A DNA stretch of 64,000 nt from Imperialibacter roseus (lineage in GTDB: Bacteria; Bacteroidota; Bacteroidia; Cytophagales; Cyclobacteriaceae): the NCBI RefSeq assembly GCF_032999765.1, contig NZ_CP136051.1:1712417-1776416 (forward strand), written 5' to 3'. Below the pieces are notes generated by a model. That model made no database searches. It saw nothing but the letters and a program-made list of their open reading frames with translations, and was not told the DNA's origin. This document shows positions 35,803 through 51,427 of this stretch, piece after piece. Within the stretch, counting starts at the first letter, position 1. Each line of letters opens with the position of its first letter. The position numbers and the translations under genes are program-made.

Positions 35803-35891
35803 GGAGAGATGGGTGAGTGGCTGAAACCAACAGTTTGCTAAACTGTCGTACTGGGTAACCGGTACCCCGGGTTCGAATCCCGGTCTCTCCG
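35803..35891 (+). tRNA. tRNA-Ser (GCU)
   Basis: An 89-nt class II tRNA. The acceptor stem is GGAGAGA with TCTCTCC, discriminator G. The anticodon loop reads TT-GCT-AA within ACAGTTTGCTAAACTGT. The long variable arm (GTACTGGGTAACCGGTAC) and the T arm (CCGGGTTCGAATCCCGG) are intact. CCA is not encoded, as is usual in this phylum. Confidence 0.96.
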
Positions 35892-35901
35892 CATTGATTG
35901 A

Positions 35902-35975
35902 GGTCCCATAGCTCAGCTGGATAGAGCAACTGCCTTCTAAGCAGTAGGTCTCAGGTTCGAATCCTGATGGGATCA
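35902..35975 (+). tRNA. tRNA-Arg (UCU)
   Basis: A 74-nt tRNA 10 nt after tRNA-Ser. The acceptor pairs GGTCCCA with TGGGATC (one G-U), discriminator A. The anticodon stem-loop CTGCCTTCTAAGCAG gives TCT. The T arm is CAGGTTCGAATCCTG. Its 3' half, terminator and 60 bp of downstream DNA are the parts that recur in the repeat array behind it. Confidence 0.96.
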
Positions 35976-35989
35976 CGAAGAAAATTTGG

Positions 35990-36019
35990 AGCCTTCAGTT
36001 GAAACTGGAGGCTTTTTTT
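35990..36019 (+). terminator. Terminator of the tRNA-Ser/tRNA-Arg unit
   Basis: A 10-bp stem, AGCCTTCAGT with ACTGGAGGCT, is followed by seven T. It begins 15 nt after tRNA-Arg. The same terminator is repeated at about 36398, 36576 and 36941. Confidence 0.9.
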
Positions 36020-36076
36020 GTGTTTGCACGTTTTACCTTTTCCGTAATATACTCGTGAACGGTCAGCCGGATAGAG

Positions 36077-36268
36077 GATCAAGCGGAAAATCTGGGGAGT
36101 AAGACGCTGAAATAACGTTGTACCATTTGGCGAATGATAGACAATAAAGAAGCAAAACTGGTTCAATGCGTCTCGCCCGGCCGGGTTAGGCTTGGACCTT
36201 TTGCTTATTTATGTAATGACATAATACTCTTGTCAAAAGAATTAATCCCCCAGAAATATTGCTTGATC
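36077..36268 (+). mobile_element. Inverted-repeat element, copy 1 (192 bp)
   Basis: The ends GATCAAGC and GCTTGATC are perfect inverted repeats, extending imperfectly to about 24 bp (GCGGAAAATCTGGGG against CCCCAGAAATATTGC). The element is flanked by a perfect 10-bp direct repeat, CCGGATAGAG, at 36067-36076 and 36269-36278, as expected of a target-site duplication. The centre holds a hairpin (AAGCAAAACTGGTTCAA with TTGGACCTTTTGCTT). No ORF inside, so it is a non-autonomous, MITE-like element. It split a tRNA-like unit. Confidence 0.75.
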
Positions 36269-36383
36269 CCGGATAGAGCCACTATCGGGGACGCCTAGTC
36301 GGGGACGCCCAGTCGGGGACGCCTAGTCTTCTAAGCAGTAGGTCTCACGGCTAGGCGCCCCCGATCCAATCCTGATGGGATCA
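36269..36383 (+). pseudogene. tRNA-Arg-derived unit A
   Basis: The D-arm-like CGGATAGAGCCACT is followed by three tandem 14-mers (36285, 36299, 36313), then CTTCTAAGCAGTAGGTCTCA identical to tRNA-Arg, then CTAGGCGCCCCCGA (36351-36364), then AATCCTGATGGGATCA identical to the tRNA 3' end. The third 14-mer pairs with CTAGGCGCCCCCGA (13 of 14), so the anticodon piece is held in a 24-nt loop. No acceptor 5' strand remains, so it cannot be a normal tRNA. Confidence 0.75.
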
Positions 36384-36468
36384 CGAAGAAAATTTAGAGC
36401 CTTCAGTTGACACTGGAGGCTTTTTTTGTGTTTGCACGTTTTACCTTTTCCGTAATATACTCGTGAAC

Positions 36469-36561
36469 GGTCAGCCGGATAGAGCCACTGTCGGGGATGC
36501 CTAGTCTTCTAAGCAGTAGGTCTCACGGCTAGGCGCCCCCGATCCAATCCTGATGGGATCA
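36469..36561 (+). pseudogene. tRNA-Arg-derived unit B
   Basis: Same plan as unit A but with one 14-mer (TCGGGGATGCCTAG at 36491). The D-arm-like GGTCAGCCGGATAGAG precedes it. The loop segment CTTCTAAGCAGTAGGTCTCA, the CTAGGCGCCCCCGA arm (36529-36542) and the tRNA 3' end (36546-36561) are unchanged. A terminator follows at about 36576-36608. Confidence 0.75.
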
Positions 36562-36638
36562 CGAAGAAAATTCAGAGCCTTCAGTTGTCACTGGAGGCTT
36601 TTTTTGTGTCCGTACTTTACCTTTTCTATAATAATGGG

Positions 36639-36791
36639 AATCAAGCGAAAAAACTGGGGATTGAATGTTTCGTTTGTGGTTAAATAAAAAAGCAAAACTG
36701 GTTCAATGCGTCTCGCTTGGACCTTTTGCTTTTTTATGACTACTCGGGATTTTGGGCTTAAAGGGTAATTCCCCAGATTTTCCGCTTGATC
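36639..36791 (+). mobile_element. Inverted-repeat element, copy 2 (153 bp)
   Basis: The ends AATCAAGC and GCTTGATC, with CGAAAAAACTGGGGA against TCCCCAGATTTTCCG, form about 24 bp of inverted repeat. The central hairpin AAAAAAGCAAAACTGGTTCA with TTGGACCTTTTGCTTTTTT is conserved but its apical part is shorter than in copy 1. The flanks share AATAAT at matching positions, perhaps a decayed target duplication. Confidence 0.68.
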
Positions 36792-36801
36792 CAATAATCG
36801 T

Positions 36802-36926
36802 GAGAGCTTAGCTGGATAGAGCCACTGTCGGGGACGCCCAGTCGGGGACGCCTAGTCGGGGACGCCTAGTCTTCTAAGCAGTAGGTCTCACGGCCAGGCG
36901 CCCCCGATCCAATCCTGATGGGATCA
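36802..36926 (+). pseudogene. tRNA-Arg-derived unit C
   Basis: The most tRNA-like copy: GAGAGCTTAGCTGGATAGAGC at its 5' side resembles the tRNA-Arg D arm with its flank. It carries three 14-mers (36828, 36842, 36856), the CTTCTAAGCAGTAGGTCTCA segment, CCAGGCGCCCCCGA (one base different from A and B) and AATCCTGATGGGATCA. Its terminator (36941-36970) may also serve the convergent UspA gene, though it reads as plus-strand. Confidence 0.75.
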
Positions 36927-36983
36927 CGAAGAAAATTTAGAGCCTTCAGTTGACACTGGAGGCTTTTTTTGTTTGCATCAGCC

Positions 36984-50983: not shown

Positions 50984-51057
<74 letters not shown>

Positions 51058-51058
51058 C

Positions 51059-51190: not shown

Positions 51191-51427
51191 ATGCAATACG
51201 TTTACATTTTGAGGTGTGCTGATGGAGATTTGTATACTGGATGCACGGCTAATGTAGAAGAGCGTCTGGCCCGGCACAATGCTGGTTATGTCCCCGCCAC
51301 CAAATCCCGGCTGCCTGTTACACTTTTAACCTATATTGCCTTCGCTGAACAACACAAAGCTTTTGCGTTTGAAAAGTATCTTAAGACTGGATCAGGCAGA
51401 GCTTTTCTGAACAAGAGATTGATTTAG
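51191..51427 (+). CDS. Small GIY-YIG nuclease-domain protein
   Basis: A 78-aa single-domain GIY-YIG protein. The conserved parts are YVYIL (GIY strand), DLYTGCT (YIG strand, here YTG), the Arg in EERLARHN and the Glu in FEKYLKTGSGRAFL, so the catalytic set is complete. The start is the ATG at 51191, 20 bp after the left direct repeat; a longer ORF from 51017 runs over the tRNA-Pro and is not credible. The protein belongs to the YhbQ/UPF0213-like small group, whose role is unclear but may be DNA nicking or repair. Bracketed by 113-bp identical repeats and followed by an inverted-repeat element. Confidence 0.85.
   Translation: MQYVYILRCADGDLYTGCTANVEERLARHNAGYVPATKSRLPVTLLTYIAFAEQHKAFAFEKYLKTGSGRAFLNKRLI

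Follow-up and report, generated by a model that had tools for sequence, protein, structure and literature searches.

The window analyzed in this work, i.e., the whole stretch of 64,000 nucleotides, is part of the 6.75-Mb single chromosome of a bacterium belonging to the genus Imperialibacter. On its forward strand, where all the features of the window described below are located, two intact tRNA genes lie close to each other, that is, tRNA-Ser(GCU) (35803–35892), recognized by both ARAGORN and Rfam, and tRNA-Arg(UCU) (35902–35976), recognized by ARAGORN and by Rfam with a score of 71.3 bits, the latter being followed by its terminator (35988–36015). Downstream of this pair there are three broken tRNA-Arg units, whose parent is the intact tRNA-Arg(UCU) gene. 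Unit 1 (36270–36381; terminator, 36396–36423) embeds a D part, three copies of the 14-mer TCGGGGACGCCYAG (36285–36326), a 24-nt anticodon loop (36327–36350), the complement of the 14-mer (36351–36364), and the 3′ part of the tRNA; an outer fragment of its D part (36060–36075), recognizable from direct repeats and from the duplication CGGATAGA, is separated from the rest by a MITE-like element. Unit 2 (36460–36559; terminator, 36574–36601) contains a D part, a single 14-mer (36491–36504), the 24-nt loop (36505–36528), the complement (36529–36542), and the tRNA 3′ part. Lastly, unit 3 (36799–36924; terminator, 36939–36966) is formed by a D part (36799–36827), three 14-mers (36828–36869), the 24-nt loop (36870–36893), the complement (36894–36907), and again the tRNA 3′ part.

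The comparison of the units with the intact gene revealed that the anticodon-to-variable segment and the tRNA 3′ end match it exactly: CTTCTAAGCAGTAGGTCTCA occurs four times with 100% identity (at 35934, 36328, 36506, and 36871) and AATCCTGATGGGATCA is identical across all the units, while the 5′ acceptor strand is missing from every one of them. A chance origin of the repeats was ruled out by the four exact 20-mers and by a near-empty control with the backwards pattern. The original prediction, made from the letters alone, had described this retention, as well as one or three copies of the 14-mer on the 5′ side, its complement on the other side, and arms pairing at 12–13 of 14 positions around a loop of about 24 nt, and on all these points it was borne out. 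Indeed, the 14-mer is present in 3, 1, and 3 copies upstream of the anticodon loop in units 1, 2, and 3, respectively (with one variant among the copies), one near-complement is located in the T arm of each unit, and the innermost arms pair at 13, 12 (plus one wobble), and 12 of the 14 positions, enclosing exactly 24 nt. Other points have to be amended. The 5′ strand of the anticodon stem had been considered as replaced; the 14-mers are there, but the arrangement is more consistent with their insertion downstream of CTG, in the order ACTG, 14-mer, TCTTCTAA. In the same way, the parts kept and replaced had been regarded as the same in all units, which holds for the two insert positions but not for the D part, alike in units 1 and 2 and different in unit 3, and the 12-pair terminators, supposed to be unchanged, have conserved stems and loops that vary. 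RNA folding predicted the arm-to-arm helix in all three units, with a stability relative to shuffled sequences (z) of −3.0, −0.8, and −1.4 for units 1, 2, and 3, respectively, i.e., clearly beyond the shuffles only in unit 1.

Two MITE-like elements interrupt the array. The first one (36076–36269), present in many dispersed copies, sits inside unit 1 and has the 8-bp duplication CGGATAGA on its flanks; the second one (about 36636–36792) is located between units 2 and 3 with AATAAT on both sides, and the corresponding AATAAT site lacks the element in the sister species Imperialibacter sp. EC-SDR9. The members of this MITE-like family share the TIR GGATCAAGCGGAAAATCTGGGG, are about 140–210 bp long, and occupy dozens of places in the genome, frequently near tRNA genes and terminators, with 8-bp flanking duplications where checked.

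The history of the array can be partly traced through this sister species, represented here by a same-genus relative (G001) that carries the locus listed for EC-SDR9. This locus harbors the same two tRNA genes and one orthologous unit with two 14-mers per side. The D part of unit 3 agrees with that of the EC-SDR9 unit at 29 of 29 nt, while units 1 and 2 share the other D part; the complete agreement suggests that one unit is ancestral and that two arose through a later duplication in the lineage analyzed here, the alternative being a loss in EC-SDR9. The tRNA-derived pieces are identical in the two species; since the nearest upstream noncoding DNA is also 98.4% identical, this identity is no proof of constraint. 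As regards the arms, there is a wobble in unit 2, an extra mismatch in unit 3, and several mismatches in the EC-SDR9 unit, none of which is compensated in these few sequences. The copies of other tRNA genes turn over between the two sister species at Thr, Met, Pro(AGG), and Ser, those bearing inserts occurring in only one of the two at Thr and Pro(AGG), and the Asn copy of EC-SDR9 has an altered anticodon.

The 14-mer was detected in 26 of the 291 genomes of the order, representing 17 of 116 genera, with up to 31 copies per genome and a near-empty backwards control; this distribution rules out a 14-mer unique to the array. It interrupts the T arms of Pro(GGG) copies in another genome (G303), of a Thr copy in the genome analyzed here, and of Pro(AGG) copies in EC-SDR9, and it is also found in tandem arrays in hairpin loops and in apparent group II introns. 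Moreover, it occupies both arms of palindromes at a fixed spacing, either in the order CCCTTCGA, 14-mer, CAAGCTCAGGG plus the mirror or in the order GTACCACGGACTTCAG, 14-mer, TCCGT plus the mirror; at three loci (L171, L180, and L182), one arm is occupied and the other one is the uninterrupted site, the empty sites of the 14-mer being mostly paralogous. The occupation of both arms would be the expected product of template switching from one arm to the other (PMC8794818).

At 37 of 48 distinct sites, TC lies directly after the 14-mer; therefore, each net insertion appears to consist of 12 bp and a repetition of TC. According to flank statistics that are approximate, the sites including related, non-independent palindromes, the flanks, once joined, give better folds than stretches drawn at random from the same loci (p = 7e-6; the 5% point of the control is exceeded at 12 of the 48 sites), and the signal is weak (p = 0.02) if only the stems immediately flanking the insertion are considered, because insertions occupy palindrome arms as well as loops. 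Some matches in coding DNA (L137, L138, and L153) have no TC flank and are probably due to chance. The lone intergenic 14-mer of the genome analyzed here (L001, 1437–1596) is embedded in an inverted-repeat element of roughly 150 bp; elements of this type recur at about 1-kb intervals in G001 (contigs C16, C17, C19, and C59), where they possibly form an integron-like cassette array. The empty site of L001 was sought in the sister species, and only diverged relatives of the surrounding repeat were retrieved.

Among about 85,000 species scanned for tRNA-Arg(UCU) genes split between the D arm and the anticodon loop, eight stretches were hit, mostly from Cytophagales. The combination of the 14-mer and the tRNA-Arg segment, whose search in related genomes had been suggested together with the original prediction, exists in EC-SDR9, and Dyadobacter, Roseivirga, and a Cyclobacteriaceae MAG have versions of their own. 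In Dyadobacter, the number of units varies from one to three; the same position of the anticodon stem is occupied by the insert CCCGGGGCGCGTAG, or by a longer sequence related to it, and the T arm by CCGGGCCGCCGGTGCGG (in Dyadobacter crusticola, L060/L065, the stretch from the start of tRNA-Arg to the hairpin unit is N-masked). In the Cyclobacteriaceae MAG, there are three units with TCCGGGGCGCGTAG, of which two are seen to carry the T-arm hairpin GCGGTTCGCCGC; lastly, in Roseivirga and in a Saprospirales MAG, the copies bear perfect palindromes in the D loop and, in one case, in the T arm too.

Broken copies are not a peculiarity of tRNA-Arg(UCU), since they adjoin 7 of the 30 tRNA genes scanned in the genome analyzed here (Arg, Asp, Thr, Asn, Met, Pro(AGG), and Ser(UGA)), most of them with hairpin inserts; with the same test, the figures were 0 of 25 for a genome of the same family (G013) and 4 of 26 for one of another family (G068). 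The insert GCGGTTCGCCGNTGCGA is common to copies of Asp, Ser, Arg(CCU), and Arg(UCU) across genera, and CGGTTCGGCGYTCCGA is found in the D loops of Thr and Lys copies. It was also observed that GCGGTTCGCCGNTGCGA is located within apparent IS1-type transposase and group II intron reverse-transcriptase genes (L114, L117, L119, and L121), i.e., within other mobile elements. At a further locus (L082; G000:C1:2819391-2820197), at least six units with a 125-bp period lie in tandem downstream of tRNA-Asp, every one of them provided with a terminator and with the hairpin GGCGGTTCGCCGNTGCGA in the T arm, and the sister species has its own tRNA-Asp array with different spacers. A viral origin was rejected, the single match in viral contigs being a plain 5′ tRNA duplication devoid of hairpin inserts. 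In the open-access literature, we found no on-point report of bacterial tRNA copies with hairpins.

Some tRNA genes are also accompanied by GIY-YIG nuclease genes. In the window, tRNA-Pro(UGG) (50984–51058) has downstream of it an ORF of 78 aa (51191–51427) with a GIY-YIG domain (Pfam PF01541, E = 2e-13). The genome encodes nine such domains, four of which are no more than 140 bp away from a tRNA gene (Pro(UGG), Met, Pro(AGG), and Ser), and three of these four ORFs are located at tRNAs that also have hairpin-bearing copies. Small GIY-YIG ORFs of 78–86 aa (that of the window, L090, L092, L096, and L252) lie beside tRNA-Pro, tRNA-Met, and tRNA-Ser here and beside tRNA-Arg(UCU) in G068. Judging by position, tRNA-adjoining domains number at least 2 of 10 in G001, where a second copy in tandem lies some 0.5 kb off, and 2 of 8 in G295, and none of those of G030 and G356 is beside a tRNA. 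In the Pro(AGG) locus of the genome analyzed here, the leader is separated from the tRNA by a palindrome-bearing 5′ copy of the tRNA and by a GIY-YIG ORF, and the sister species has no insertion at this site; at Ser, the ORF has a 5′ tRNA copy with a hairpin on one side and the intact tRNA on the other. The same arrangement was found in G068, where the ORF separates a 5′ tRNA-Arg(UCU) copy with a 20-bp D-loop palindrome from the intact tRNA-Arg(UCU). No GIY-YIG gene is located in or beside the tRNA-Arg array, nor near the Asp, Thr, and Asn copies. Reports on GIY-YIG genes beside bacterial chromosomal tRNAs were sought in the open-access literature, and none was on point; in phage T6, a tRNA locus cannot undergo tandem amplification without SegB, a GIY-YIG homing endonuclease (PMC13096335). 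These facts make it attractive to think that nucleases gave rise to the spare tRNA copies.

Different explanations can be proposed for the array. The original prediction had called for either selection or a copying mechanism; copying is supported by the tandem duplicates of the tRNA plus its terminator and by the recurrence of the 14-mer insertion elsewhere, whereas the functional roles it had listed (substrates for RNase P or RNase Z, decoys for arginyl-tRNA synthetase or for an anticodon nuclease) are not. According to this functional reading, the units would encode small RNAs mimicking tRNA-Arg, which would carry a long hairpin with the UCU loop exposed and serve as decoys for a tRNase, ArgRS, or RNase P/Z. 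The retention of the anticodon segment, the 3′ end, and the terminators in all units, the good pairing of the arms, the folding of unit 1 beyond its shuffles, and the presence of tandem Arg units also in Dyadobacter and in the Cyclobacteriaceae MAG fit this idea, as does the existence in Bacillus cereus of a pseudo-tRNA with a cellular effect (PMC3399842). However, the covariance-model scoring proposed with the prediction gave no tRNA match in Rfam between 36040 and 36990 at E values up to 10, and ARAGORN made no call on the units, which rules out a functional tRNA variant or a known RNA family. Besides, the 5′ acceptor strand is gone, the arm changes are uncompensated, the copies of other tRNAs decay (as in the case of the EC-SDR9 Asn anticodon) and turn over, and the insert is found also outside tRNA copies; we consider a decoy role quite unlikely. 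A promoter scan with a sigma-70 model, which does not cover Bacteroidota promoters, found nothing.

The position of the GIY-YIG ORFs between hairpin-bearing 5′ copies and intact tRNAs at Pro(AGG), at Ser, and in G068, the site without insertion in the sister species, the proximity of four of the nine domains to tRNA genes, and the precedent of SegB might suggest that each broken copy is the direct product of breaks made by a homing endonuclease, the hairpins being repair filler or changes that destroy the cut site rather than independent mobile elements. This is unlikely in such a strict form: identical inserts occur at non-tRNA sites, which would not be expected from random repair filler, and the copies of Arg, Asp, Thr, and Asn have no GIY-YIG ORF in or near them. 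Far less probable are the scars of a repeated tyrosine-integrase action at a tRNA-Arg attachment site, which had also been put forward. tRNA-Arg genes are common integration sites, and in G356 a 3′ remnant starting at the anticodon loop, of the kind left by attachment, precedes the Dyadobacter-type units. However, that remnant lacks the D side, whereas the units retain the D part upstream of an anticodon-loop crossover together with the 3′ part, with inserts on both sides of the segment, and the same pattern, with inserts in D loops and T arms, affects many other tRNAs; on anatomy, this reading was discarded.

We suggest, with a probability of about 70%, that the array represents amplified non-coding tRNA debris invaded by hairpin micro-inserts, a process possibly started by tRNA-homing GIY-YIG nucleases. 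Some observations count against it, i.e., the integrity of the tRNA pieces and of the terminator stems in all units of both species, which selection would explain as well, the two insert positions common to all units with arms still well paired, and the absence of any GIY-YIG gene in or beside the array. If the debris reading is correct, tRNA-Arg and its terminator would have been duplicated in tandem, one unit arising before the split from EC-SDR9 and two later, as the alignment shows (unless EC-SDR9 lost them). Upstream of the anticodon loop, as well as in the T arm, the spare copies would then have gained the 14-bp hairpin-prone micro-insertion (12 bp plus the repeated TC), and the 14-mers may have multiplied through slippage or repeated insertion, giving 3, 1, and 3 copies here and 2 + 2 in EC-SDR9, with the complementary arm perhaps produced by template switching. 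The two MITE-like elements arrived later, as shown by the flanking duplications and the empty site, and the identity of the tRNA-derived pieces might have been assured by recombination with the intact tRNA or simply by recency. As for the trigger of the tRNA duplication, small GIY-YIG nucleases cutting or homing at tRNA genes might have played this role, as suggested by the occurrence of their genes beside other tRNAs here and, in another family, beside tRNA-Arg(UCU). Overall, selfish DNA that seeks out structures seems to have left its trace in the array, which does not look like a dedicated RNA device.

Comparable elements are known, such as the hairpin-forming repetitive elements of sponge mitochondria (PMC2800124) and the GC clusters of yeast mitochondria (PMC4478555). 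Like these and the double-hairpin elements of organelles, the inserts described here are short, GC-rich or hairpin-prone dispersed repeats, unevenly distributed among relatives and located in or near RNA genes. The traits of mobile hairpin micro-elements (RHE-, GC-cluster-, or DHE-like) are only in part the same: many dispersed copies and both occupied and empty sites were found, but in a bacterial chromosome instead of an organellar genome, with a unit of just 12–17 bp concentrated in spare tRNA copies and in the arms of other palindromes. The amplification involving SegB also relies on a small free-standing GIY-YIG gene by tRNA genes and yields tandem copies of tRNA segments; in our case, however, the tRNAs are chromosomal and bacterial, the copies are broken and hairpin-bearing, and the array contains no GIY-YIG gene. 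Template-switch hairpins share the insertion as a reverse complement in the second palindrome arm, but template switching alone supplies no defined recurrent 14-mer. REP/BIME-type repeats, in turn, are dispersed palindromes, and the 14-mer often lies within such palindromes; unlike them, it is shorter and inserts into palindromes.

More tentatively, and with somewhat less than an even chance of being right, tRNA genes might be the target of a selfish system of Cytophagales not described so far, in which small GIY-YIG nucleases would break and re-supply tRNA genes, leaving tandem fragments, while hairpin micro-elements of 12–17 bp would use sites adjacent to TC in structured DNA, chiefly the arms of spare tRNAs, for their insertion, with copying between palindrome arms. 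If this were true, few mobile DNAs would be as small as these micro-elements. Most of the known micro-hairpin elements come from organelles, and their presence in a bacterial chromosome, with both occupied and empty sites in relatives that can be cultured, would make the question of their movement testable. Our findings also represent a warning that hairpin copies bearing an anticodon can arise without any decoy function, and they suggest that, in part of a bacterial order, essential single-copy tRNA genes are repeatedly hit by duplication and possibly by GIY-YIG nucleases.
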